Assembly: GCA_902786205.1 (NCBI GenBank)
Contig: CADABQ010000007.1
Span: 1-64,000 of the forward strand
Length of the DNA stretch: 64,000 nt
Direction of reading: 5' to 3'
From: an uncultured Lachnospiraceae bacterium
Lineage (GTDB): Bacteria; Bacillota; Clostridia; Lachnospirales; Lachnospiraceae
The notes below the pieces were generated by a model. It was not told where the DNA came from. It was given only the letters and a program-made list of their open reading frames with translations, and did no database searches. Positions 41,105-55,584 of this stretch are shown here, in pieces; within the stretch, counting starts at the first letter, position 1; the number at the start of each line of letters is the position of its first letter. Both the position numbers and the translations under genes were made by a program.

Positions 41105-43012
41105 TTATTCTAATTCAAATGCGCCAGTATATAACTGATAATATTTTCCTTTTTGTGCAATGAGATCATCATGACTTCCACGCTCAATAATTCTTCCCTG
41201 CTCCAGTACCATAATCACATCAGAATTTTTTACCGTGGATAAACGATGGGCAATTACAAAAACGGTTCTTCCTTTCATTAGAGAATCCATTCCCCTTTGT
41301 ACAATAGCCTCCGTACGAGTATCAATAGAAGAAGTTGCTTCATCCAATATCATAACCGGAGGATCTGCCACCGCCGCACGGGCAATTGCAATCAATTGTC
41401 TCTGTCCTTGTGAAAGATTTGCACCATTTCCAGAAAGCATTGTATCATATCCTTCTGGCAATCGATCAATAAAATCGTCTGCCCCAGCTAATTTTGCTGC
41501 CGCTATACATTCTTCATCCGTTGCATCTAGTTTACCATATCGAATATTATCCATCACAGAACCAGTAAACAAATTTGTCTCCTGCAAAACAATTCCAAGA
41601 GAGCGACGTAAATCTGCTTTTTTAATCTTATTGATATTAATACCATCATAACGAATTTTTCCATCTGCAATATCATAAAATCGATTAATCAAATTTGTGA
41701 TTGTTGTTTTTCCTGCACCAGTTGAACCAACAAAAGCAACTTTTTGTCCAGGTTTTGCATATACATCAATATTATGCAATACCAATTTTTTTTCTGTATA
41801 ACCAAAATCTACATCGAACAAACGAACATCCCCGGTTAATTTTGTATACGTAACCGTTCCATCTGCCGCATGTGGATGTTTCCAAGCCCACATTCCAGTA
41901 TGTTCTTTACATTCTACAATAGATCCATTTTCTTCTTTTGCATTTACTAATGTAACATATCCCTCATCTACTTCCGGTTTCTGATCAGCCAGATTAAAAA
42001 TACGATCCGCACCTGCAAGCGCCATAACAACAGAATTTACCTGCTGAGATACCTGACTGACATTACCGGAAAATTGTTTTGTCATATTTAAAAATGGAAC
42101 AACAATGCTTACGCCCATTGCCAAACCTGAAATACCTATATTCGGCACTTTTAAATAAATAAGCAGACCACCTACTGCTGCCACTAAAACATAAAGAATA
42201 TTTCCTATATTATTCAAAATAGGCATAAGCATATTAGAAAAACTATTGGCCGCCTCTGCATCTTGAAACAGCTTTTCATTGATAGAATCAAATGCTTTTT
42301 CTGTTTCTTCTTCGTGACAAAAAACTTTTACAACTTTTTCGCCATTCATAATCTCTTCAATATAACCTTCCACTTTTCCTATTGCATTTTGCTGTCTGAC
42401 AAAGTATTTTGCAGAAGCTCCACCTATCTTTTTTGTGACAACCGTCATAATAATAACACCCACAACAACTACCGCTGCCATCCAGAAACTAAAATATAAC
42501 ATCAAAAAGAATGTAGTACAAACGACCACCACCGCATTGATCAACTGTGGTATACTCTGTGAAATCATCTGACGAAGCGTGTCAATATCATTTGTGTAAT
42601 AACTCATAATATCTCCATGATTATTCACATCAAAATATTTAATTGGTAAATCCTGCATACCATTAAACATTTTTTCACGCATCTTCATCAAAGAACCTTG
42701 CGTAATCACTGCCATCATCTGATTATAGACAAAGCATGCAATTAAAGATAATATATAAAATATACCCAAGATTGTTACAAGATGAATAATCCTTCCAGAT
42801 ACTCCATTCCAATCTCCTGTCTTATATGTCTGATCTATCAAAGAAACAACCTGTTGCATAAAAACACTTGGTATAGAAGAAACCACTGCACTAAAAACAA
42901 TGCAAATCAATACAACCGGCATCATAACAGGATAAAATTCAAATAATGTTTTTATCAAGCGTGGCAACGTACCTTTTTTCACTACACCCTGTTTTCCGTT
43001 TCTTTTATTCAT
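41105..43012 (-). CDS. ABC exporter half-transporter, canonical ATPase site
   Basis: This roughly 635-residue membrane-ATPase fusion is the canonical half of a heterodimeric multidrug-type exporter. Six membrane helices are followed by an ATPase domain: Walker A GSTGAGKTT, signature LSQGQ, Walker B VMILDEATSSIDTRTE with the catalytic Glu, and AHRLS. Between the two halves a 40-residue insert (near WAWKHPHAADGTV) lies at the start of the ATPase domain, as in many clostridial exporters. The start is the ATG at 43012, with AGGTG six bases upstream. Its first eight bases overlap the stop of the partner gene, so the two are translated together. Confidence 0.92.
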   Translation of the reverse strand: MNKRNGKQGVVKKGTLPRLIKTLFEFYPVMMPVVLICIVFSAVVSSIPSVFMQQVVSLIDQTYKTGDWNGVSGRIIHLVTILGIFYILSLIACFVYNQMMAVITQGSLMKMREKMFNGMQDLPIKYFDVNNHGDIMSYYTNDIDTLRQMISQSIPQLINAVVVVCTTFFLMLYFSFWMAAVVVVGVIIMTVVTKKIGGASAKYFVRQQNAIGKVEGYIEEIMNGEKVVKVFCHEEETEKAFDSINEKLFQDAEAANSFSNMLMPILNNIGNILYVLVAAVGGLLIYLKVPNIGISGLAMGVSIVVPFLNMTKQFSGNVSQVSQQVNSVVMALAGADRIFNLADQKPEVDEGYVTLVNAKEENGSIVECKEHTGMWAWKHPHAADGTVTYTKLTGDVRLFDVDFGYTEKKLVLHNIDVYAKPGQKVAFVGSTGAGKTTITNLINRFYDIADGKIRYDGININKIKKADLRRSLGIVLQETNLFTGSVMDNIRYGKLDATDEECIAAAKLAGADDFIDRLPEGYDTMLSGNGANLSQGQRQLIAIARAAVADPPVMILDEATSSIDTRTEAIVQRGMDSLMKGRTVFVIAHRLSTVKNSDVIMVLEQGRIIERGSHDDLIAQKGKYYQLYTGAFELE

Positions 43013-44747
43013 CTTCTTCACCTGCCTTATTTTGTGACATAAATACTTCACGATATATTTCATTTGTTTTTAATAGTTCCTCATGTGTACCAATTCCATT
43101 AATGGTACCCCCATCCATAACAACAATACGATTCGAATCCTGCACAGATGAAATTCGCTGTGCAATAATTATTTTTGTTGTCTCTGGAATAAATTGTGCA
43201 AAAGCCTGCCGAATCAATGCATCTGTCTTCGTATCTACTGCACTGGTCGAATCGTCCAAAATAATTACTTTGGGTTTTTTCAACAAAGCGCGGGCAATAC
43301 ACAAACGCTGCTTTTGTCCTCCTGATACATTCGCTCCACCTTGCTCAATGTATGTATCATACTTATCTGGGAATCTTTGAATAAATTCATCTGCTTGTGC
43401 AAGCTTGCATGCCTCTATCATTTCTTCGTCTGTTGCCTCTTTATTTCCCCAACGCAAATTGTCTTTAATCGTGCCAGAAAATAATACATTTTTCTGTAAT
43501 ACAACTGCAACTTGATTACGCAATGTATCAAGATCATATGCTTTTACATTTTCTCCACCAACTTTAACTACACCTTCCGTTACATCATACAAACGAGAAA
43601 TAAGCTGAATCAGGGAAGACTTAGAAGAACCTGTTCCTCCAATAATTCCGATAGTTTCTCCAGACTTGATATGAAGATCAATGTTCGATAAGGCATTTTT
43701 ATGAGCCGTCTTTGCATACTTGAAATTAACACCTTCAAAATCAATAGAACCATCCTCAACTTGCATCAAAGGATTTTCCGGATTTTTAATTGTACTTTCA
43801 TCCTCCAGTACTTCAACAATACGTTTCGCTGACTCCATTGACATTGTTACCATAACAAAAACCATAGATACCATCATAAGGCTCATTAAAATTTGAAATC
43901 CATAAGTAAGTAAAGAAGACAATTGCCCTACATTAACTGTTGCCCCTTTTGTGGAAATAATAAAATATGCACCAAAATACATTACAAATAACATAACCAC
44001 ATATAGACAAAATTGCATAACAGGCGCATTTATCGCTAAAATTCTCTCTGCTTTTGTAAAATCTTTGCATACGTCCTCTGCTGCAACCTGAAATTTTTGT
44101 TTTTCATAATCTTCACGAACAAAAGATTTTACTACTCGCATTGATTTTACATTTTCTTGAATAGAATTGTTTAATTTATCATATTTTTTAAATACTGCCC
44201 GAAATAATGGCATTGTTATCTTTAATACAAATCCCAATACCAAAATAAGAATTGGAACAACTGCAACAAAAATAGTAGCAAGTTTTCCCCCCATAATAAA
44301 TGCCATTATGATAGCAAATAGAAACATAAGCGGAGCTCGAACCGCAAGACGAATCGTCATCATAAATGCCATCTGCACATTCATAACATCCGTCGTCATT
44401 CTAGTCACCAATGAAGAAGTAGAAAAACGATCAATATTTTCAAACGAAAACTCCTGTACCTTATAAAACATATCTTTTCTTAGGTTCTTCGCCAAACCAC
44501 AGGATGCTGTAGAAGCTGTCTTTCCTGCCAAACCTCCAAACAAAAGAGAAAGACAAGCCATTATCACCAATATAACTCCATATTTTCCAATTACGTCCAA
44601 TCCACATCCACTTTGAATTTCATTGACAAGATTTGCAATAATCAACGGAATTATGCACTCAAGAACTACTTCAAAGATAATAAAAATCGGTGTAATAACC
44701 GCAGAATGTTTATATTCTCGTAAACATCCAGTCAATTGTTTTATCAT
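43005..44747 (-). CDS. ABC exporter half-transporter, degenerate ATPase site
   Basis: This is the partner of the 41105 gene. It has six membrane helices then an ATPase domain with Walker A GGTGSSKSS, VSGGQ signature and Walker B VIILDDSTSAVDTKTD. Asp replaces the catalytic Glu, and the switch His is replaced by Gln (AQRIS), as in the degenerate site of TM287/288- or BmrCD-like heterodimers. The start is the ATG at 44747, nine bases after AAGGAG; the ATG at 44756 touches that site. The substrate cannot be told; drugs, lipids or peptides are all possible. Confidence 0.92.
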   Translation of the reverse strand: MIKQLTGCLREYKHSAVITPIFIIFEVVLECIIPLIIANLVNEIQSGCGLDVIGKYGVILVIMACLSLLFGGLAGKTASTASCGLAKNLRKDMFYKVQEFSFENIDRFSTSSLVTRMTTDVMNVQMAFMMTIRLAVRAPLMFLFAIIMAFIMGGKLATIFVAVVPILILVLGFVLKITMPLFRAVFKKYDKLNNSIQENVKSMRVVKSFVREDYEKQKFQVAAEDVCKDFTKAERILAINAPVMQFCLYVVMLFVMYFGAYFIISTKGATVNVGQLSSLLTYGFQILMSLMMVSMVFVMVTMSMESAKRIVEVLEDESTIKNPENPLMQVEDGSIDFEGVNFKYAKTAHKNALSNIDLHIKSGETIGIIGGTGSSKSSLIQLISRLYDVTEGVVKVGGENVKAYDLDTLRNQVAVVLQKNVLFSGTIKDNLRWGNKEATDEEMIEACKLAQADEFIQRFPDKYDTYIEQGGANVSGGQKQRLCIARALLKKPKVIILDDSTSAVDTKTDALIRQAFAQFIPETTKIIIAQRISSVQDSNRIVVMDGGTINGIGTHEELLKTNEIYREVFMSQNKAGEEDE

Positions 44748-44876
44748 GTATTCCATCTCCTTTTTTATTTTTGCAACTGTTTCAAGGGTGCGTCTGTGAT
44801 ATTTTTAACTAATAACAAAATTTCTTAGCCATTTTACAAATGTCCCTCTGAATAGTCACTTATTTTTATATGAAGA

Positions 44877-44913
44877 AGAAAGGGTATTCCCGCACATACG
44901 GAAAACCCTTTCT
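44877..44913 (-). terminator. Terminator after the HAD gene
   Basis: AGAAAGGGT (44877-44885) pairs with ACCCTTTCT (44905-44913). It separates the two exporter operons. Confidence 0.6.
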
Positions 44914-45005
44914 AAGTCAGCCTATCTATTTTAGCACTAAAAATATAATTTTTCAAATACTTTTTTTACAAGCAGATTGAAAAACTAGCATTATTCCTAT
45001 TTTAT

Positions 45006-45623
45006 TTATTCTGCTATTTTTTCCGGTAATTCTGCAAAAGTATTGATTCGTTTTACATCTGCATCTACCGTACCAAATCCATATGCCGCATGAATAAACT
45101 CAAACCCTGCTTCCATTGTTGCCTCATAATCACCCTGAATATCGCCCACATAGATCACATGGTCTAATCGATTTCGTTTTGCAACAAGTTTTTGATTATA
45201 TGCTTTTCCTTTCCCAGTATTTCCAAAACATTCAAAATCATCAAAATATTTTTCAAATTTATAGAATTTCAAAAATGCTTCTATATAGCCGCTTTGACAA
45301 TTGCTTACGATATACAAAGGATATTTTTCCTTTAATTGCTTGAGTGTTTTTTCTAAATCCGGATATAAAACACCTCCATGCTGTTCTAAATAAACATTTT
45401 CAACTTGTAAACAACGATCAAATATTTCTTTTCTCTCTTCTACTGTTTTCTCCGGCATAACATTTTCTGCAATCACATCCATCGTCTTTCCCATAAGACT
45501 TTGTAAATGTTCCATGCTCAATTCTACTCCGTATTCCTTTAACACTTCATTCCATATATAACATATTTCTTTTGTTGAATCCCATAAGGTTCCATCCATA
45601 TCAAACATAATACCTGTTTTCAT
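45006..45623 (-). CDS. HAD-family phosphatase
   Basis: This is a roughly 205-residue haloacid dehalogenase-like hydrolase with DMDGTLWDS (motif I), SNCQSGY (II), a Lys in the AYNQKLVAKR region (III) and VGDIQGDYEA (IV), and a helical cap of the phosphoglycolate phosphatase type. The start is the ATG at 45623, ten bases after GGGAGG, rather than the TTG at 45629. It lies 18 bases after an exporter gene and is the last gene of that operon. Its substrate is unknown; the linkage to the exporter may be physical only. Confidence 0.82.
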   Translation of the reverse strand: MKTGIMFDMDGTLWDSTKEICYIWNEVLKEYGVELSMEHLQSLMGKTMDVIAENVMPEKTVEERKEIFDRCLQVENVYLEQHGGVLYPDLEKTLKQLKEKYPLYIVSNCQSGYIEAFLKFYKFEKYFDDFECFGNTGKGKAYNQKLVAKRNRLDHVIYVGDIQGDYEATMEAGFEFIHAAYGFGTVDADVKRINTFAELPEKIAE

Positions 45624-45641
45624 TTTCAAATTGCCTCCCTT

Positions 45642-47396
45642 TTATGATTCTGTTGTCGCAAACTGACTATTATAAAGGTTTGCATAAAATCCATTTTGCG
45701 CAAGCAATGTATCATGATTTCCCTGTTCTATAATATTACCATCTTTCATAACTAAAATCACGTCTGCTTCACGAATGGTAGATAAACGATGCGCAACAAT
45801 AAAACTAGTCCTTCCCTGCATCATGTGACTAAATGCCTCCTGAATTTTTACCTCTGTACGGGTATCTATAGAAGAAGTTGCCTCATCCAATATCAAAATT
45901 GGTGGTAGACAAAGCATAACCCGCGCAATACAAAGTAACTGTTTTTGTCCTTGTGAAAGCGAAGCACCACTTTCTCCAATAACTGTATCATACCCATTTG
46001 GAAGTCTTTTTATAAAATTATGTGCATGAGAATCCTTAGCTGCCTGTATAATTTCTTCTCTTGTAGCATTCGGTTTCCCCATAGATATATTTTCCAATAT
46101 CGTGCCTGTTTTTAGCCAGGTTTCCTGTAATACCATACCAAAATTGCTTCGCAAATCTTTTCTAGAAATATCTCTGATATCCACTCCATCAATTTTAATA
46201 CTTCCTTGATCCACATCATAGAAACGCATCAACAAATTGATCATCGTCGTTTTTCCACAGCCAGTCGGTCCTACAATTGCAATTCTTTGTCCAGGCTTTA
46301 CAGATAAGTTAAAATCCTGTATTAATTTTTTTTCTGGAACATAAGAGAAAGATACATGTTCTAGGTCAACTTTTCCGGTTGCATTTTGCAATCTGCAAGT
46401 TACCTCTGTTTCTCTTTCCGGTTCTTCCTCAATCAAAGCAAATACGCGCGCTGCACATGCCAATGCATTTTGTAATTCCGTAATTACTCCTGAAATCTCA
46501 TTAAAAGGCTTTGTATATTGATTTGCGTAACTCAAAAAGCAAGATAATTCACCAACTGTCAACATACCACCAATAGCAAAATACGCTCCCGTCAAACCAA
46601 CTCCAGCATAAACTACACTATTTAAAAATCTAGTCACTGGATTGGTAAGAGAGGAAAAGAATGTCGCCTGCAACGAACATTCTGCCAAACGTTCATTAAT
46701 TTCATCAAATTGTTCCATAGCTTCCTTTTCATGATGATACGCTTTTACAACCTGCTGGTTTCCAACTAATTCTTCCACCAATGAAGTTTGTTCCCCTCTT
46801 GTCTCTGATTGTTTTAAAAACAAATGATAAGTTTTCCCGGAAATAAAACGTGCTACAAAAAGAGATAACGGAGTTAATAACACCACTACAAAAGCAATCC
46901 AAATATTGATAGAAAACATAAAAAGCAAGGTTGCCAAAATCGTTACAACTCCTGTAAATAGTTGTGTAAATCCCATCAAAAGTCCATCCGCAAATTGGTC
47001 TACATCCGCTATTACCCTGCTTACAATATCTCCATGAGACTGCGCATCTATATACTTTAAAGGTATTTTTTGTATTTTCTCAAAGGCCTCATTTCGAATA
47101 TCCTGCACAACCTGATACGTTATTTTATTATTTATTGTGTTCATAATCCATTGGAAAAATGCGGTAATAAAGGCAACAATGACAATGCGTATCAATAATG
47201 GAATGATTGTTTGGTCCACCTTTCCCGGACCTACAATTTTGTCAATAGCATTTCCTACAACAACTGGAATATACAAGGTCAAGAGTACACTTAAAAAAGC
47301 AAGTAAAATAGAACAAAAAAGCAAAAAACGATACTGTTTGATATACGTAAGTACCTTTTGAATTGTAGCTTTTGAAGTATTCTTTTTATTTTCCAT
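45642..47396 (-). CDS. ABC exporter half-transporter, canonical ATPase site (second pair)
   Basis: This roughly 584-residue half-transporter has six membrane helices and a full ATPase: Walker A GPTGCGKTT, LSQGQ signature, Walker B ILILDEATSSIDTRTE and AHRLS. It is the canonical half of the second heterodimer. The start is the ATG at 47396, nine bases after AAGGAGG; it overlaps the 3' end of the partner gene. Layout and motifs mirror the 41105/43005 pair, suggesting an old duplication. Confidence 0.92.
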   Translation of the reverse strand: MENKKNTSKATIQKVLTYIKQYRFLLFCSILLAFLSVLLTLYIPVVVGNAIDKIVGPGKVDQTIIPLLIRIVIVAFITAFFQWIMNTINNKITYQVVQDIRNEAFEKIQKIPLKYIDAQSHGDIVSRVIADVDQFADGLLMGFTQLFTGVVTILATLLFMFSINIWIAFVVVLLTPLSLFVARFISGKTYHLFLKQSETRGEQTSLVEELVGNQQVVKAYHHEKEAMEQFDEINERLAECSLQATFFSSLTNPVTRFLNSVVYAGVGLTGAYFAIGGMLTVGELSCFLSYANQYTKPFNEISGVITELQNALACAARVFALIEEEPERETEVTCRLQNATGKVDLEHVSFSYVPEKKLIQDFNLSVKPGQRIAIVGPTGCGKTTMINLLMRFYDVDQGSIKIDGVDIRDISRKDLRSNFGMVLQETWLKTGTILENISMGKPNATREEIIQAAKDSHAHNFIKRLPNGYDTVIGESGASLSQGQKQLLCIARVMLCLPPILILDEATSSIDTRTEVKIQEAFSHMMQGRTSFIVAHRLSTIREADVILVMKDGNIIEQGNHDTLLAQNGFYANLYNSQFATTES

Positions 47397-49122
47397 TTTC
47401 CATCGCCTCCTTTTTAAACTGCGAATAATAAATCTCCTTATATACATCACAACTTTCTAGTAATTCTTCATGTTTTCCCTTGCCAACTAGCTTTCCATCC
47501 TCTAAAACTAAAATGCAGTCAGCATGCTGTATGGAAGATGTTCTCTGTGATACCATAAATATGGTCATTTTCTTTTCCATTTTTGCTAATGCAATTCGCA
47601 AAGCTGCATCGGTTGCATAATCAAGTGCAGAAGAACTATCATCTAAAATCAATACATCTGCATCCTGTACCAATGCTCTAGCTATAGTAAGGCGCTGTTT
47701 TTGTCCTCCGGATAGATTTTTTCCGCCCTGTTCAATCATATAATCCAATCCGCCATCTTTTGATTCTACCACATCTTTTGCCTGTGCAATAGAAAGAGCT
47801 TCCCACAATTCCGCATCTGTAGCATCCTTCTTTCCCCAAAGCAAATTTTCGCGAATGGTACCATGAAATAGTACTGCCTTTTGCAAACAAGTAGATACCT
47901 TTGTACGAAGCGCTGCATAAGTATAGGATTTTACATTTTCACCATCTACCAAAACTTCCCCCTCTGTAGCTTCGTAAAAACGAGGGATTAAATTTACCAG
48001 AGAAGATTTACCAGAACCAGTTCCACCAATAATACCAATTACCTGTCCGGGTTTTGCTGCAAAAGAAATATTTTCCAACGCAGCTTCTCCACCACCCTGA
48101 TACTGCATACTCACATTTCGGAACTCTACCATGCTTTCATTTTTACTTTTTCCAGCCGTTTCCCTTCCTTCTTCCATATCAGAACTGGTTTCAAAAACAC
48201 TTTGAATACGATTTCCACATGCAATTGTTTTGGTTATACTGATAATCAAATTAGCAAGTTTAATTAACTCTACCAAAATCTGTGACATATAATTATAAAG
48301 TGCTACAACGGCTCCCTGTGTCAATACGCCTGCCGCTACACGTATTGCACCATTCCAAATTAAAATAGCAATGGCTATATTAATAATAATATACGTAACC
48401 GGATTCATCAGTGCAGAAATACAACCTACCTTTTTTTGTATATTCGTCAAATCTTCATTATATAGACCAAATATTTTTATTTCTTCCTCTTCTTTACAAA
48501 ACGCACGAATTACCCTTGTTCCCTCTAGATTTTCTCTAGTAGTAGACAATACACGATCTAATTTTTCCTGTACTTTACGATATTTTGGAATACAAAATAA
48601 CATAATCCCAAATATTACAATGAATAAAACCGGAATCGTAACTACAAAGATCAACGCTGCCTGCACATCAATTGTAAATGCCATGATCATTGCGCCAAAT
48701 ACCACAAATGGAGAACGTAAAAGCAAACGCAATGTTATATTAACGCCTGTTTGCACCTGATTCATATCACTTGTCATTCTTGTAATCAAACTTGAAACTC
48801 CAAGTTTATCCATTTCAGCAAAAGATAATGTTTGAATATGCTCAAATAATGCATGTTTTACTTCTTTTGCAAATCCAGTTGCCGCCTTTGCCGCAAAATA
48901 CTGTGCGCTAATGGATGCTGCCAATCCACACACACCAAAAAGAATCAAAGTTGCAAACATTTTTAGGATATATTCACGATCATGCATTCCAATACCCTTG
49001 TCAATCAAAGACGCCATAACAATTGGAACCATTAATTCAAATATAACCTCCACCAATTTAAAAAAAGGGCCTAAAAGACTCTCTTTTTTGTAATTTTTCA
49101 AATAGACCAGTAATTTTTTCAC
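47386..49122 (-). CDS. ABC exporter half-transporter, degenerate ATPase site (second pair)
   Basis: This is a roughly 578-residue half-transporter with Walker A GGTGSGKSS, LSGGQ signature and Walker B VLILDDSSSALDYATD. Asp takes the place of the catalytic Glu and Gln replaces the switch His (SQRTS). It is the non-hydrolysing partner of the 45642 gene. I choose the GTG at 49122 (MKKLLVYLK), eight bases after AGGAG; the TTG at 49128 is in frame. First gene of the operon; no MarR- or TetR-type regulator is adjacent. Confidence 0.9.
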   Translation of the reverse strand: MKKLLVYLKNYKKESLLGPFFKLVEVIFELMVPIVMASLIDKGIGMHDREYILKMFATLILFGVCGLAASISAQYFAAKAATGFAKEVKHALFEHIQTLSFAEMDKLGVSSLITRMTSDMNQVQTGVNITLRLLLRSPFVVFGAMIMAFTIDVQAALIFVVTIPVLFIVIFGIMLFCIPKYRKVQEKLDRVLSTTRENLEGTRVIRAFCKEEEEIKIFGLYNEDLTNIQKKVGCISALMNPVTYIIINIAIAILIWNGAIRVAAGVLTQGAVVALYNYMSQILVELIKLANLIISITKTIACGNRIQSVFETSSDMEEGRETAGKSKNESMVEFRNVSMQYQGGGEAALENISFAAKPGQVIGIIGGTGSGKSSLVNLIPRFYEATEGEVLVDGENVKSYTYAALRTKVSTCLQKAVLFHGTIRENLLWGKKDATDAELWEALSIAQAKDVVESKDGGLDYMIEQGGKNLSGGQKQRLTIARALVQDADVLILDDSSSALDYATDAALRIALAKMEKKMTIFMVSQRTSSIQHADCILVLEDGKLVGKGKHEELLESCDVYKEIYYSQFKKEAMENGK

Positions 49123-49229
49123 AAACAAAACTCCTATCTTTATTCATTTTCTCACTCAGAGAATTTTTGCTCATCTACAATTTTTTATCATATCACTTTT
49201 TGCTTTCTCTTTCAATCTTTTCCTATAGA

Positions 49230-49307: not shown

Positions 49308-49589
49308 TTATGCATACGCCTTTTCTAAAATTGCAGTGAGTGCATTTCCACTACTTGTATGGCATCTTACTACATCTGCATTACACTTAGCAGCCTCTGC
49401 AACCGCACAGCGAACCATTTTATGAGAAACCGTATTCGTAAATAAAACAACCAAATCCGGACTTCCAATTTGACTACTCAAATTTCCGCTCATTTGTGTA
49501 AATACTTTTGCCTTACAATTATGCTGCTTACATATTTTTTTATATTGACATACCATACGGTCATGTCCGCCAATAATTACTACGCTCAT
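49308..49589 (-). CDS. DUF2325 family protein
   Basis: This 93-residue soluble protein starts MSVVIIGGHDRMVCQYK, the typical DUF2325 opening, and has DLVVLFTNTVSHKMV, then NADVVRCHTSSGNAL. The conserved Gly-Gly-His and Cys/His residues suggest nucleotide or metal binding; the biochemical role of the family is not settled. The ATG at 49589 has TGGAGGA just upstream; a longer frame to 49631 has no ribosome site. It has its own promoter with an operator-like palindrome and lies downstream of the metal ATPase, which suggests a link to metal supply. Confidence 0.8.
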   Translation of the reverse strand: MSVVIIGGHDRMVCQYKKICKQHNCKAKVFTQMSGNLSSQIGSPDLVVLFTNTVSHKMVRCAVAEAAKCNADVVRCHTSSGNALTAILEKAYA

Positions 49590-49660
49590 TTTATTCCTCC
49601 AATACTTCGGGTGTTTTGAGATTCTACCCAATCTTATGTAGTATACTCTGTTAAAAGGTT

Positions 49661-49714
49661 GTTAGTCTTAACTAACTTCTTTTTTATCATACCGAAATAT
49701 CGTGAAAGAATCAA
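49661..49714 (-). promoter_or_regulatory. Promoter and operator-like palindrome of the DUF2325 gene
   Basis: On the minus strand TTGATT (49709-49714), 17 bases and TATGAT (49686-49691) are followed by a palindrome GTTAGT-CTTA-ACTAAC (49661-49676), over about +3 to +18. The core resembles boxes of DtxR/IdeR-type metal repressors. Confidence 0.55.
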
Positions 49715-49762
49715 GTATTCTATTGACGATTTTTTTTCAGATGTAATAAAATGTACTCCTTT

Positions 49763-49804
49763 GTCAAACGGATATTCGCAATTCGCTCTGCTACTTGCTC
49801 ATAA
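49763..49804. repeat. Short intergenic repeat, copy C of 3
   Basis: GTCAAACGGATATTCGCAA then TTCGCTCTGCTACTTGCTCATA is the closest relative of copy A (14362). It lies immediately beyond the ATPase stop codon. Confidence 0.65.
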
Positions 49805-49813
49805 CACTATCTT

Positions 49814-51895
49814 CTATATATCCGTTAACAAATTGCTCATATTTTTTAGTGAAATGACAAGTGTAGATGAGTTATGCAACATTGCAGTTGTCGTCGGTGC
49901 CATCACACCTGCTACCCCTAACGCAATAAGCCCTGCGTTAAATCCAACAATGTTTCGATAATTGCTTTTAATACGTTTCATCAAAGCATTACTTAAGCGT
50001 TTTAAAATTACCAATTGATTTAAATTATCTGCCTGAATGGTTATATCCGCAATTTCTCTTGCAATTTCTGCTCCATCACTAATTGCAATTCCTACATCTG
50101 CCGCAGATAATGCCGGAGAATCGTTAATTCCATCTCCAACCATAATTACAGTATTACCATTTTTCTTTTCTTCTTCTACAAAATGTGCCTTATCTTCTGG
50201 TAACACTTCTGCATAATATTGATCCACTCCAACACGTTTTGCTATTGCCTTTGCAGTATGTTTGCTATCTCCTGTCATCATAACAATATTTGAAATGCCT
50301 GCCTCACGCAACGCCTGAATTACATCCGCTGCTTCTTCGCGCAGTGGATCTTCTACACAAATAACGGCAACTAATTTTCCTTCTATTACAAGATATAAGT
50401 GAGAGTATTCCTTTGGAAGAGAAGCAAATAGTTCTTCCTTTCCCTCTGGAATTACACAACCCTCATCTTCAAAAATAAAATGATAACTACCAATAACAAC
50501 TCGTTTATCCTTTATGGTACTAGCAATACCATGTGCGACTACGTATTGTACCTTAGAATGCATTTCTTCATGTTCTAACTGCTTTTTCTTTGCAGCGGTC
50601 ACTACTGCATTTGCCATAGAATGTGGAAAATGTTCTTCTAAACAGGCAGCAATACGAAGAGATTCATCCTCTGTGTATTGAGCAAATGGTATCACTTTTA
50701 CAACCATTGGCTGTGCTTTTGTCAATGTACCTGTCTTATCCAACACAATGGTATCTGCTTGTGCCACTGCCTCTAAAAATTTACCACCCTTTACAGTTAT
50801 ATGATGCGCATTTGCCTCACGAATAGCCGAAAGAACAGAAATTGGCATTGCAAGTTTTAATGCACAAGAGAAATCAACCATCAATATTGCCAATGCTTTC
50901 GTTACATTTCTTGTAAAAAGGTAGGTAAGCCCAGTACCAAGTAAACTATATGGAACCAATTTATCTGCCAAATGCGATGCTTTTCCCTCAATGGAGGATT
51001 TTAATTTTTCTGACTCTTCGATCATTTTTACAATCTTTTCAAATCGACTAGATCCACCTGCATTTCGAACACGAAGCGTAATTTCTCCCTCTTCCAAAAC
51101 TGTTCCAGCATATACAATATCATCTTCTGCCTTTCTGACAGGCATGGATTCGCCAGTAAGAGAAGCTTGATTTACCATACCTTCTCCTTCTACCACTACA
51201 CCATCAAAAGGAATGACTTTTCCCATATGTACAACAACAAGATCATCTGCCTGTATCTGTGAAACCGGAACTAAAACCTGCTGTTCTTCCTGTTTGACCC
51301 AAACTTTCTTCACATTGAAAGACATACTTCTTGCCAAATCATCCACTGATTTTTTATGTGTCCATTCCTCTAACAATTCTCCAATGCCCAAAAGCCACAT
51401 AATAGATGCCGCTGTTTCAAAATTACCTCTTGCTATAGAAACACCAATTGCAGTTGCATCCAAAACGGGAACTTCAATTTTCCTTTTCCATAAAGTTTTG
51501 ACACCAATCCAAATATATTTTACAGAACGAATTATAGCAATTCCTGTTCGAATTGGAACTGGAAGAAACATTTTTCCCATGCATCTGGTAACAACCTTTT
51601 CCACAAGTTTTTCTTGATAATGCGCATTCATTTCTCTTCCAAAATTTTCAACTATACCCTCTGGTACAACACATCTCTCATAGGAAAATTTTTGTATTGC
51701 AGTGATAATCTCCTGACGATTTCCTGTAAAACAAATCGTAGCATCTGCAGTTCTTTCATATACTTTTGCGTAATTGACACTCTCTAAATTTTGCAAATAA
51801 TACAATAATATATCTGCCTGCGCATAAGACATTTTCCTTTGTGCCAAATGAATACGCATTCGATTCTTTGCCTCATGTAAAATTTGAAATTTCAA
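49814..51895 (-). CDS. P1B-type metal ATPase with SC-type membrane motif
   Basis: This is a 693-residue heavy-metal-type P-type ATPase. An N-terminal ferredoxin-like domain without CxxC covers residues 1-75. SLTGES is at 245-250, the phosphorylated Asp-386 lies in VLDKTGT, and MVGDGINDSPALSAADVG is near the C-terminus. The metal-site helix reads DFSCALKLAMP (341-351), so the usual CPC or SPC is replaced by SC. That is the pattern of the P1B-6-like group, to which the ferrosome ATPase FezB belongs. Iron is therefore the best guess for the metal. It follows the small DUF6110-like gene by about 120 bases. AAAGGGGAT precedes the ATG. Confidence 0.85.
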   Translation of the reverse strand: MKFQILHEAKNRMRIHLAQRKMSYAQADILLYYLQNLESVNYAKVYERTADATICFTGNRQEIITAIQKFSYERCVVPEGIVENFGREMNAHYQEKLVEKVVTRCMGKMFLPVPIRTGIAIIRSVKYIWIGVKTLWKRKIEVPVLDATAIGVSIARGNFETAASIMWLLGIGELLEEWTHKKSVDDLARSMSFNVKKVWVKQEEQQVLVPVSQIQADDLVVVHMGKVIPFDGVVVEGEGMVNQASLTGESMPVRKAEDDIVYAGTVLEEGEITLRVRNAGGSSRFEKIVKMIEESEKLKSSIEGKASHLADKLVPYSLLGTGLTYLFTRNVTKALAILMVDFSCALKLAMPISVLSAIREANAHHITVKGGKFLEAVAQADTIVLDKTGTLTKAQPMVVKVIPFAQYTEDESLRIAACLEEHFPHSMANAVVTAAKKKQLEHEEMHSKVQYVVAHGIASTIKDKRVVIGSYHFIFEDEGCVIPEGKEELFASLPKEYSHLYLVIEGKLVAVICVEDPLREEAADVIQALREAGISNIVMMTGDSKHTAKAIAKRVGVDQYYAEVLPEDKAHFVEEEKKNGNTVIMVGDGINDSPALSAADVGIAISDGAEIAREIADITIQADNLNQLVILKRLSNALMKRIKSNYRNIVGFNAGLIALGVAGVMAPTTTAMLHNSSTLVISLKNMSNLLTDI

Positions 51896-52013
51896 AGGAT
51901 TAATCCCCTTTCTTTGTTTGTTCGATAACTACATTTATTCCTTATCCACCATACCTCTGTAGAGGAAAAAAGACCCCCATATTACACAGGCGCCTTTTCC
52001 ATCTTTCCACAAA

Positions 52014-52334
52014 TTATGCTTCTTCTGTCTCTGTAGTTTCTTCTTCTGTCACTTCTTCGTTTTCTTCATCATATGCATCTTCAAATTCTGCTGCTGCCTC
52101 GCGTTCTTCATTGATAATCTTTGCATCTGCATAAATATCTTCTGCATTTTCCTGAACAGAAGATGCTACCTTCATCAAACAATCCTTACCTCTTAAAATT
52201 GCAGCTGTACAATTTGTATAAAATTTCTTTGCATCACTGCTAGACAAAACCTTAAGTCCTGCTGTACCAAATAATACACCTGCTGTAAAAATCCCCGTTT
52301 TCTTCCATGTTATTTTCTTTAAACAATCTAACAT
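52014..52334 (-). CDS. Small DUF6110-like membrane protein with acidic tail
   Basis: This 106-residue protein has one membrane helix (about 13-31, TGIFTAGVLFGTAGLKVLS), then SSDAKKFYTNCTAAILRGKDCLMK, a helical part and a very acidic tail from residue 75 on (Glu/Asp-rich to the end). It matches the DUF6110-like proteins commonly encoded next to P-type metal ATPases in gut Firmicutes. It may help build or recruit the ATPase complex; the acidic tail could bind metal. AGGAGG lies before the ATG. First gene of the operon. Confidence 0.7.
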   Translation of the reverse strand: MLDCLKKITWKKTGIFTAGVLFGTAGLKVLSSSDAKKFYTNCTAAILRGKDCLMKVASSVQENAEDIYADAKIINEEREAAAEFEDAYDEENEEVTEEETTETEEA

Positions 52335-52402
52335 AATTGTACCTCCTATAATTAATTTTTCTTTTTGTAAAGAAAATTTGCAATCCTTTTTTTAACGTAG
52401 CA

Positions 52403-52437
52403 ATAGCAAAGTAGGAACACCCTTTCTACTTTGCTAT
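52403..52437 (-). promoter_or_regulatory. Perfect 12-bp leader hairpin of the metal ATPase operon
   Basis: ATAGCAAAGTAG (52403-52414) pairs with CTACTTTGCTAT (52426-52437) around an 11-base loop. It lies between the promoter and the DUF6110-like gene. No T-run follows, so it is not a plain terminator. Confidence 0.55.
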
Positions 52438-52467
52438 AACATTGCATATTTTCTTTTAATGCTTTTT

Positions 52468-52496
52468 ATTATAACCATATCTCGTTCTAAGAACAA
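52468..52496 (-). promoter_or_regulatory. Promoter of the DUF6110-ATPase operon
   Basis: On the minus strand TTGTTC (52491-52496), 17 bases and TATAAT (52468-52473). A GTTCT-T-AGAAC palindrome overlaps the -35. The leader is about 125 bases. Confidence 0.6.
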
Positions 52497-52626
52497 CATC
52501 CTTTGCATTTATTGATAAAACTTCTCATTAATATCCTGCTATCGTTTTTATTACAAAGAAACTACCATTTAGGGGTGCCATTCAAAAAATATCAGCTATA
52601 CAAACACATCCTCTAAACACTAGTAT

Positions 52627-52659
52627 AAAAAGCGCCGCAATTACTTGCGACGCTTTTTT
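52627..52659 (-). terminator. Terminator of the Ig-like surface protein gene
   Basis: GCGCCGCAA (52632-52640) pairs with TTGCGACGC (52645-52653) around TTAC, with A- and T-runs outside. About 60 bases beyond the stop. Confidence 0.85.
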
Positions 52660-52716: not shown

Positions 52717-55584
52717 TTAGTTTGCATCTGCAACAAACTCATTTTCAAAGCTTCCAATCAAAGTATTGCCCTTAATTGATTTAATGCTCTTGTCAACATT
52801 TAATACATAACTCTTTTTTGTACGAAGAGTTCCTGCTGGAACGGTAAATACAAGAACATAATATCCAACATATTCATTTCCAGTCTGCTTATCAACTTCA
52901 ACTGAAGAATCTGTTGGAAAATTATAACCATCTAACTTCCATCTTGTAATATCTAATGGTTCTGAATTTTCTGCAACACCCTGTGTTAACTTAACTGTAA
53001 TAATATCATTTTCTTTTTTATTTACCGCTGCCGTTGTTCCCTTTACATATTCAAACGAGAATAAACCAGATGTTGGCTGTACTTCAAATCTTGCTACCTT
53101 TGTCTCAGCCGCATTCTTTACATCATCGTATACATATGTCAATGCAATCGTCCATGATGTACCATACCCTTCATCTACCAACTGTTGAATTGTTTTTCCT
53201 TTGTAAAGAGCTTCTACCTGCAATAAAGTATCTGTCTTCTTCTTTGTTTCGGTGTCGTAATAACCACATACAGCACCATCAAAAGTTACAACATCACCAT
53301 TTGGCTCGTTGCCCTTAAACTCAGCCTTTGCAATCTGAAGAGATTGTGTCTCTGCCAATGTAATATTATTACTTTCTTTACCATCTTTAGAAAATGCAAC
53401 TGGTTCAGACATCTGCACTGCAAAATACTGATCCTCATCAGTCTGCATAATAGCCTGAATTTGTGGACTTACATCATCCTGTTGATTCATAGGAGAACCT
53501 TCTGAATTTAAATCAAGCTTAATAACCGTATCATTTGTCAAACCATTATTGTCGTTATAAACCGTATCTTCTGGCAATTCAAACTGATATAAATCATTGT
53601 AGTAATTACGATTTGTTAAAGATGTTGTATAGAACTTTGTCCAGTCTTCTGTTAACTCAATTACAAATTCGCCATCGCTAACCTGTGTTACCTTTAAGAA
53701 ACTATTTAATCCAGCTTCTAAAGTAGGTTTTACTTTCTTTCCTTCTTCTGTTCCTAACTCTACTTTGGAATTAAATGTACTTACAGTATCCATTAATGAG
53801 ATGTATTTACCTCCCACTTTTACCTTTAATGCTTTTGAGAAATATTCCACTGCATCAATCTGTGTTTTATTCTTATCTTCGGTAAAGAATATAGGACACT
53901 CTTTTTCGTTTTTATCCCCAGTAAACTTAACACGATACTGTTCCGGCGATTCAACAGTAATATTGGCAACTGGTTTATTTGCATCCTCCGTAATTTCAAA
54001 GTCCTTTACTTGATTTGAAATTACATTTTTACCAATATCTGTAATGCCAGCATAATCAATAACATTTGTTACTGCTAACTTGGCCGTACCTGCCCTAAAA
54101 TAAGACTGTATTCCCTTATCATTTTTTCCTAATGTTAACATTACAACAGCACGATTATCCTCAGCAGTAGCAGGATTATACGTTCCATATGTTGCATTCC
54201 CTAATTTATATGTCGAACCATTTATTGTATATCTTGCTTTTTCTGTGTTCTGTGTTGCAGGGATTGCCTCTGAAAAAGTAACTTTAATTTTTTTCATACC
54301 AGCAGATTCAATTGCAGTAACCTCTGGATTCTTTGCATCTGTTAAAATGAAAGAAATATTTGTATTGATACCACATGGTTTATTTGTATAATTTACATAC
54401 ACTCTGTTGTTATCGTCCAAAACATTATCTTCTGCAATCAAAAGCTGTAATGCTTTCTTATTAGCAACTGTACCATGATCACCATTTACTGTTGCCAAAC
54501 CAACTACTGGATACTCAACTGGTTTTGCTTCTCCGTTCACTTTCTGAGAAATTGTAAATATTGGTTTGTTTGCACTGTTTGCAATAAATACCTGTTTACC
54601 ATCTACTACTTTGTATGTACCAGTTGCAGCATTTTTAACTACAAAATCCTCAATCGATACTTCGCGGTCAAAGAATAATGTTACACGGTCTGCCTGAGCT
54701 GATTCTGCTTTTACAAGCTTTGGCGATTTATCTTCAGATATTTTAAATGGCTCAAAAGTAATATATGTTTCGCCAAAAACCTTTCCAACTAAGTCAGTTC
54801 CATTATTGGACTGTCTGGAAATATCAGCAGTAACCTTTGTTGTTATTTCCTTTGCGGAAAATTCTGAATTTAATACAAGCGTACCTGTACCATTCTTAAT
54901 TGTAATAGACGGATTGGAAAGTTGACCATATGATGTTCTTACATCTAATGTAATATCATTTGCTGCTGTATCTACCTTCTGAGTTTTTGTATTGATCATC
55001 TTAAAGGTTAATACTGTATTATCCCCACCATCTGCAATCAAAGTCTTATCATTTGCATCGATTACCAATGCCCAATTCTTATCGTTATTTGATGTAATTG
55101 GTGTTGCTGTTGGTGCCATAGTTGGTGTTACCTCTGGTACAACGGTTGGTACAACAGGTGTTGTGGATGTTGATGGTGTTGGTGTTGTTGGTGTTGTTGG
55201 TGTTGTTGGTGTTGCGGTTGGTTTTGCTGTAGCAACTACACGTTTTGCATTAACTGTAACGGTTTTCTTTAATGTCTTAACAGTCTTCTTCTTTTTATTC
55301 TTTACAACTGCCTTAATTACTGTCTTTCCTTTGCTCTTTGCCGTTACAACACCTTTGGCTGTTACGGTTGCCACTGCTTTCTTCGAACTGCTAAAAGAAA
55401 CTTTTCCACCAGCTGGCTTATTCTTAACTGTAAATGTATATTTCTTACCTACAGTCATTGTCTTTACTGTCTTTCCCCAGCTTGGCGCCTTTGCTGCAGA
55501 GGCATCAATTGGATTGGATGAAAGAACCAACGCACATGCCAAACCAGCAGCAACTGTTCTTGATAGTTTGCTTTGCTTTTTCAT
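52717..55584 (-). CDS. Secreted surface protein with Ig-like domain and Thr/Pro linker
   Basis: This 955-residue exported protein has a signal sequence (VAAGLACALVLSSNPIDASAA). Residues about 34-112 form a Big_2-like Ig domain (SWGKTVKTMTVGKKYTF, ATVTAKGVVTAKSKGKTVIK). A Thr/Pro linker (about 120-165) leads to a long beta-rich region with several DSP-like strands (DAKNPEVTAIESAGMKKIKV, a SbsA-like Ig pattern, recurs). No LPXTG motif or membrane anchor is seen at the C-terminus, so it may be released or bound non-covalently, like an S-layer-type or matrix protein. Single gene with promoter and terminator. Exact function unknown. Confidence 0.75.
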   Translation of the reverse strand: MKKQSKLSRTVAAGLACALVLSSNPIDASAAKAPSWGKTVKTMTVGKKYTFTVKNKPAGGKVSFSSSKKAVATVTAKGVVTAKSKGKTVIKAVVKNKKKKTVKTLKKTVTVNAKRVVATAKPTATPTTPTTPTTPTPSTSTTPVVPTVVPEVTPTMAPTATPITSNNDKNWALVIDANDKTLIADGGDNTVLTFKMINTKTQKVDTAANDITLDVRTSYGQLSNPSITIKNGTGTLVLNSEFSAKEITTKVTADISRQSNNGTDLVGKVFGETYITFEPFKISEDKSPKLVKAESAQADRVTLFFDREVSIEDFVVKNAATGTYKVVDGKQVFIANSANKPIFTISQKVNGEAKPVEYPVVGLATVNGDHGTVANKKALQLLIAEDNVLDDNNRVYVNYTNKPCGINTNISFILTDAKNPEVTAIESAGMKKIKVTFSEAIPATQNTEKARYTINGSTYKLGNATYGTYNPATAEDNRAVVMLTLGKNDKGIQSYFRAGTAKLAVTNVIDYAGITDIGKNVISNQVKDFEITEDANKPVANITVESPEQYRVKFTGDKNEKECPIFFTEDKNKTQIDAVEYFSKALKVKVGGKYISLMDTVSTFNSKVELGTEEGKKVKPTLEAGLNSFLKVTQVSDGEFVIELTEDWTKFYTTSLTNRNYYNDLYQFELPEDTVYNDNNGLTNDTVIKLDLNSEGSPMNQQDDVSPQIQAIMQTDEDQYFAVQMSEPVAFSKDGKESNNITLAETQSLQIAKAEFKGNEPNGDVVTFDGAVCGYYDTETKKKTDTLLQVEALYKGKTIQQLVDEGYGTSWTIALTYVYDDVKNAAETKVARFEVQPTSGLFSFEYVKGTTAAVNKKENDIITVKLTQGVAENSEPLDITRWKLDGYNFPTDSSVEVDKQTGNEYVGYYVLVFTVPAGTLRTKKSYVLNVDKSIKSIKGNTLIGSFENEFVADAN
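55170..55216. repeat. Tandem GGTGTTGTT repeat encoding a Thr/Pro linker
   Basis: Short tandem units of GGTGTTGTT lie within the 52717-55584 gene and encode (ThrThrPro)n on the minus strand. Such runs can change length by slippage, altering the linker in steps of three residues. Confidence 0.7.

Follow-up and report, generated by a model that had tools for sequence, protein, structure and literature searches.

A gene pair of the Clostridioides difficile fezAB type, very probably a ferrosome locus, in an uncultured Lachnospiraceae bacterium

The stretch analysed here, called the window throughout, comprises the first 64,000 nucleotides of contig CADABQ010000007.1 of an uncultured Lachnospiraceae bacterium (GenBank assembly GCA_902786205.1; host genome of 3.37 Mb), and it carries on its minus strand a gene for a small membrane protein, a gene for a P1B-type ATPase and a DUF2325 gene. 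The first two very probably form a fezAB locus of the Clostridioides difficile type, that is, the gene pair of ferrosomes, the membrane-bounded organelles in which C. difficile stores iron. Both proteins are orthologous to those of C. difficile, the gene order is the same, and in relatives the pair stands in the company of iron genes and shares an operator with them; from the named relatives we infer that an organelle would be formed, that its cargo would be Fe(II) and that it would be used when iron returns after scarcity. The system type has already been described, and the guess of ferrosomes made in the initial annotation of the locus, from motif and layout, holds. The genes are the following.

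52014..52334, minus strand: fezA-type gene, DUF6110 protein of 106 residues, ATG start at 52334, end at 52014
49814..51895, minus strand: fezB-type gene, P1B-6 ATPase of 693 residues, TTG start at 51895
49308..49589, minus strand: DUF2325 gene, 93 residues, ATG at 49589, stop at 49308

All three are real genes, with the coordinates and strand first described. The TTG start of the ATPase gene is preceded by an AAGGGG ribosome site, and the ATG of the DUF2325 gene has a GGAGG site, the longer TTG start in the list of open reading frames not being needed. Pfam assigns the proteins to DUF6110, to E1-E2 ATPase plus hydrolase, and to DUF2325, respectively, and the closest ATPases are those of Roseburia inulinivorans (71% identity) and Velocimicrobium (68%), as would suit a gut anaerobe of Lachnospiraceae type.

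The assignment to fezAB is based on the comparison with genome G770, taken as a C. difficile genome because its RpoA matches PDB chain 7l7b_A at 99% identity, an entry that we take to be the C. difficile RNA polymerase. One ATPase of G770 is 59% identical to the window ATPase over 688 residues (E 1e-270) and is the sole P1B-6 pump found in that genome; the next-best P1B, which has CPC, reaches 32%, and all others 32% or less. The gene directly before it encodes a DUF6110 protein of 133-138 residues (E 1.2e-20), and the two small proteins have a motif in common, KKTGIFTAGVLFGTAGLKVLSSSDAKK in the window and KKTGIFLGGVLLGTVGVKILSSDCVKK in C. difficile. According to a review (PMC12574912), ferrosomes of this species depend on both FezA and FezB, which Fur represses, and fezAB are the adjacent genes CD630_05910-05920 (PMC11651100). 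Since FezB belongs to the P1B-6 ATPases, of which G770 yielded a single one, and since fezA adjoins fezB, C. difficile FezA is, judged by position, content and published locus tags and not by accession, a member of DUF6110; the same sequence comparison makes the window ATPase an ortholog of that P1B-6 pump, which is identified as FezB by elimination. The initial annotation had thought a variant system possible, with partner proteins perhaps different from the known Fez proteins. The ferrosome link itself stands, with an ATPase orthologous to FezB, and the idea of a variant does not, the partner belonging to the FezA family.

The ATPase has the features of a P1B-6 pump, namely SC[A..] in transmembrane helix 4 (TM4), HN in TM6 and an N-terminal domain without CxxC. 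Its TM4 reads DFSCALKLAMP, in agreement with the SCALKLAMP motif reported in the initial annotation, its TM6 has HNSST, and in the first 120 residues CxxC is absent, as had also been noted, RMR standing in its place. In a motif survey of 77 intact ATPase relatives, [FY][SC]CA[LM]K was present in all 77, HN-x-[ST]-T in 73 and an RxR-like motif around residue 12 in 74, and 75 were without an N-terminal CxxC. The AlphaFold model of the window ATPase (mean predicted local distance difference test score, pLDDT, 78) shows, judged by eye, eight membrane helices and an HMA-like order of strands and helices at the N-terminus (residues 3-17, 24-35, 40-46, 51-56 and 60-69). Taken by its sequence, then, the window ATPase is a P1B-6-type pump; the other P-type ATPases read in the window's genome include three P1B pumps, and these have CPC.

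The phylogeny of 47 ATPases (LG+C20, with support from the Shimodaira-Hasegawa-like approximate likelihood-ratio test, SH-aLRT) points in the same direction. The window and C. difficile ATPases fall together in a 20-row clade (SH-aLRT 99), nested in a clade (100) of all DUF6110-linked ATPases, including those of two Deinococcus plasmids. The sister of that clade is formed by four ATPases encoded in multi-gene fez-like clusters of Azospirillum, Arcobacter, Cereibacter and Vibrio plasmids (83, inside a group supported at 99). The next branch (98) holds CtpC-type ATPases encoded behind DUF1490 (PacL), and the copper pumps and the zinc, cadmium and cobalt pumps are placed elsewhere. A grouping with copper, zinc or manganese exporters, which the initial annotation had named as a refutation, did not appear. 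Some of the sampled plasmids show further peculiarities. The Arcobacter cluster (L098 2506-7106) encloses a DUF2202 ferritin-like gene and adjoins a DUF2325 gene; the Cereibacter cluster, on a conjugative plasmid (L099 4179-8647), lies near FeoA, TonB receptor and FecR genes, and its ATPase has YACPVK in place of YSCALK in TM4; and a Deinococcus plasmid (L180 2165-4669) encodes a P1B-like ATPase with an odd TM4, DFASGIRVSAP, which forms a long branch next to the Fez clade.

The 106-residue protein matches Pfam DUF6110 (PF19605) with E 3.2e-38 and 130 bits, against a curated cut-off of 26 bits. It has a single hydrophobic segment (residues 13-31) and an acidic C-terminus with a net charge of about -16 over the last 40 residues, which bears out the earlier description of a small membrane protein with an acidic tail; the helix carries a small-residue motif, GVLFGTAGLK, and an amphipathic region, TAAILRGKD...ENAEDIYADAKIIN, is present besides. 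DUF6110 is scarce and patchy, being found in 8 of 398 genomes of a phylum sample and 29 of 391 of a class sample, and an ATPase gene lies within reach of the 1.5 kb flank in 32 of 35 such loci. Among 80 related loci, three lose their upstream part at contig ends, and in all of the remaining 77, which have enough upstream sequence, DUF6110 is encoded directly upstream of the ATPase. Two DUF6110 genes (L090 and L095) occur in genome G069, one of them without an ATPase within 1.5 kb, as is also the case for the DUF6110 gene of L111 (genome G821).

Iron genes are frequent neighbours of the pair: when 40 loci were considered with about 5 kb on either side, 20 held feo, dtxR, fur, flavodoxin or DUF3793 genes, and one of them, L008, has the arrangement feoA-feoA-feoB-fur-fezA-fezB. 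Among the palindromes that precede fezA in relatives, the most frequent is the DtxR-type GTTAG-N6-CTAAC; of 77 regions, 20 have it at a match of at least 9 of 10 and no more than 300 bases from fezA, compared with 0.45 expected from dinucleotide shuffles. In the window's genome this palindrome is present 15 times (3 for the reversed control), one of them between a gene for a DtxR-family iron-dependent repressor and feoA-feoA-feoB, and others before a Fur-family gene and a DUF3793-flavodoxin pair. In the 80 fez loci, 56 perfect sites were counted in 0.78 Mb (reversed control, 0), a density about 16 times that of the window's genome (15 in 3.37 Mb), although this comparison is rough and joins different genomes. 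Since the operator is shared with feoB and flavodoxin in relatives, expression of fezAB under iron scarcity is to be expected; iron control is thus supported by the company of the genes and the sites in relatives, and for the window itself we infer it from them. The genome-wide GTTAG-N6-CTAAC regulon (genome G000, loci L158-L172) further includes a number of ABC transporter genes and the genes of an FMN-binding protein and of a Gfo/Idh protein whose C-terminal domain is of the thiazolinyl imine reductase (Irp3-like) kind, the last of which hints at siderophore-like synthesis.

Three elements lie upstream of fezA in the window.

52468..52496, minus strand: promoter-like site of fezA, TTGTTC-17-TATAAT, read from the sequence; overlaps palindrome GTTCTTAGAAC
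52403..52437, minus strand: leader hairpin, 12 pairs, no T tract
52513..52527, unstranded: weak Fur-box-like site TGAGAAGTTTTATCA, matching at 12 of 14 positions; 15 of 2000 shuffles reach 12

The promoter-like site combines a perfect -10 TATAAT (52473-52468) with a weak TTGTTC 17 bases upstream. The initial annotation had read the promoter, the hairpin and the palindrome as signs of metal control; all are present in the window, and neither the hairpin nor the palindrome is conserved, so that the two are weak evidence for such control. The palindrome (52494-52484) was rejected as an operator, as the other 76 upstream regions all lack it; the leader hairpin (fold z = -4.0) was likewise rejected as a conserved regulatory RNA, since a check of 14 relatives gave no counterpart and no Rfam family came close to its cut-off. 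The Fur-box-like site is probably due to chance, and a classical Fur box upstream of fezA in relatives shows a slight excess at most. A variant, TGATAAA-N-TTTATCA, is perfect in relatives L007, L008 and L043.

Following the C. difficile model, FezB would pump cytosolic Fe(II) into vesicles or the lumen of some other membrane compartment, and FezA, through the small-residue (GxxxG-like) face of its single helix and its acidic cytosolic tail, would pack FezB into clusters and may shape or stabilise the membrane. Both proteins would be made under iron scarcity, and iron arriving later would be stored as mineral in ferrosomes. Expression under iron scarcity agrees with storage once cells are refed and is an argument against an exporter induced by metal excess. 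The DUF2325 gene next door would be a separate iron-starvation gene.

The DUF2325 gene is a single copy in the window's genome, and its product (PF10087, E 2.4e-35) is modelled as a small Rossmann-like domain (pLDDT 88.6); a search of the PDB gave no match, and a function from the fold was rejected, the matches being to generic Rossmann folds only. Two elements lie in the gap of 225 bases that separates it from fezB.

49661..49676, unstranded: DtxR-type operator GTTAG-N6-CTAAC, GTTAGTTAAGACTAAC, before the DUF2325 gene, 10-25 bases past the -10 box
49686..49714, minus strand: promoter-like site of the DUF2325 gene, TTGATT-17-TATGAT, from a consensus scan only, which overall gave no more sites than shuffles

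The initial annotation had grouped this gene with the fez genes and had not described the operator, which lies 87 bases ahead of the ATG. The gene is adjacent to the pair on the same strand, has an iron-type operator in front and has a counterpart beside the fez-like cluster of the Arcobacter plasmid, as would be expected if the three genes formed one operon and DUF2325 were a third ferrosome component. Nevertheless, this is quite unlikely: DUF2325 occurs near fezAB in only 9 of the 80 loci, the operator and promoter-like site in the gap are its own, and in several relatives DUF2325 heads a run with DUF3793 and flavodoxin. All eight relatives with DUF2325 downstream of fezB carry the GTTAG-N6-CTAAC operator at a match of at least 9 of 10. 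In L044, L054, L066, L070, L073, L077 and L080, DUF2325 is followed by DUF3793 and mostly then by flavodoxin, behind an iron-type box, a recurrent arrangement that appears to be an iron-scarcity gene run. The Campylobacter DUF2325 protein Cj1384c, which is Cys-rich, is encoded beside katA and is PerR-regulated (PMC9426514), a further point against a ferrosome component. From its sequence and surroundings, we read DUF2325 as an iron or oxidative stress protein in a unit of its own within the iron regulon, and not as a Fez component.

With regard to the pair itself, two kinds of export pump were considered. An ordinary copper, zinc, cadmium or cobalt exporter is highly improbable: the ATPase does score above the general cut-offs of TIGR01525 and TIGR01512 (cadmium family), but its position in the tree is apart from those pumps, SCALK replaces CPC or SPC, HN is present in TM6 and CxxC is lacking, and the constant DUF6110 partner and the iron-gene company are not those of such an exporter. 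A PacL-like efflux platform, in which the DUF6110 scaffold would cluster the P1B-6 ATPase in the cell membrane for export of Fe(II) or Zn(II) and no organelle would be made, is unlikely but has more in its favour. PacL clusters CtpC via conserved transmembrane glycines and Glu/Ala repeats, DUF6110 has been published as a relative of DUF1490/PacL typically encoded with P1B-6 ATPases, with platform assembly suggested (Boudehen et al. 2022), and DUF6110 proteins have been termed PacL-like in a 2026 paper; ferrosomes are mentioned in neither, and no paper on both was found in the literature searched. The nearest characterised pair, C. difficile FezAB, nevertheless makes ferrosomes, fez loci have the same operator and the same surroundings as feoB, flavodoxin and fur, which are genes expected under iron scarcity and not under metal excess, and the window FezA contains no His and ends without a metal-binding motif, Pfam giving DUF6110 and not DUF1490. 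In our own profile comparisons, hhalign aligned DUF6110 with DUF1490 (eight sequences) in register but weakly (probability 6-35%, score 21-27, shuffled maximum 25.9), and the best hmmsearch reached 13.5 bits, a result that is no more than suggestive. It is conceivable, although somewhat doubtful, that FezA and PacL belong to one homologous family of ATPase-clustering scaffolds, and that ferrosomes and mycobacterial effluxosomes are two outcomes, organelle and membrane platform, of an ancestral module of scaffold and P1B-6 ATPase.

Some observations weigh against a fezAB function. The window fezA is without a DtxR-type box (best match, 6 of 10); the Fur-box variant of the relatives has three sites in the window's genome, compared with two in the control, all inside coding genes and with no evident regulon; the identity of C. 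difficile FezA rests on position and content; and PacL-linked efflux pumps are, in the tree, the sister group of the whole clade, so that a role in export at the cell membrane may be possible. Taken together with the evidence above, a fezAB locus remains the very probable reading. As for the surroundings, a 955-residue secreted, Thr/Pro-rich surface-type protein is encoded directly upstream of the locus (52717-55584), with a terminator-like hairpin near 52640, and three consecutive ABC exporter genes with a HAD hydrolase gene between lie directly downstream of the DUF2325 gene (43005-49128, minus strand).

With these data, the FezAB-type ferrosome would no longer be confined to C. difficile but would reach Lachnospiraceae, Oscillospiraceae and other gut-type anaerobes, and the pair of DUF6110 and ATPase genes extends to Deinococcus; if commensals do use ferrosomes to store iron, the view of how gut bacteria compete for it would have to change. 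The identification of FezA as Pfam DUF6110 makes the link between ferrosomes and the PacL effluxosome testable, and two uncharacterised families, DUF2325 and DUF3793, become tied to a DtxR-type iron regulon.

Among the known systems, the zinc effluxosome of Mycobacterium, PacL-CtpC, with DUF1490 and a P1B6-like ATPase, resembles the window locus in that the gene of a small, one-helix, scaffold-type protein immediately precedes that of a P1B ATPase, again with HN in TM6, but its TM4 has CPC and not SCALK, metal is bound by the tails of many PacL proteins (His or acidic), CsoR or ArsR regulators stand beside the sampled plasmid PacL loci, and its ATPases form the sister clade, of which the window ATPase is not a member. 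A six-gene fez operon has been described in Rhodopseudomonas. The window differs from this layout, as DUF6110 alone precedes the ATPase. Shewanella also has a six-gene fez operon, and the fez-like cluster of Azospirillum comprises six genes. The proteobacterial multi-gene clusters have a FezB of the sister clade, with SCALK, and directly upstream of it a one-helix protein with a similar F..G.L.G....YVLS stretch, which hhalign relates to DUF6110 with a score of 29 (maximum of column-shuffled controls, 15.6); their upstream protein is, however, not DUF6110, and the HMA_2 and other small genes are missing from the window. With C. difficile fezAB, the differences are the downstream DUF2325 gene with its DtxR-type operator, a shorter and more acidic FezA tail, and a window fezA at which no clear Fur box was found, whereas the same two genes stand in the same order and the small proteins, of one Pfam family, share KKTGIF..GVL.GT.G.K.LSS.

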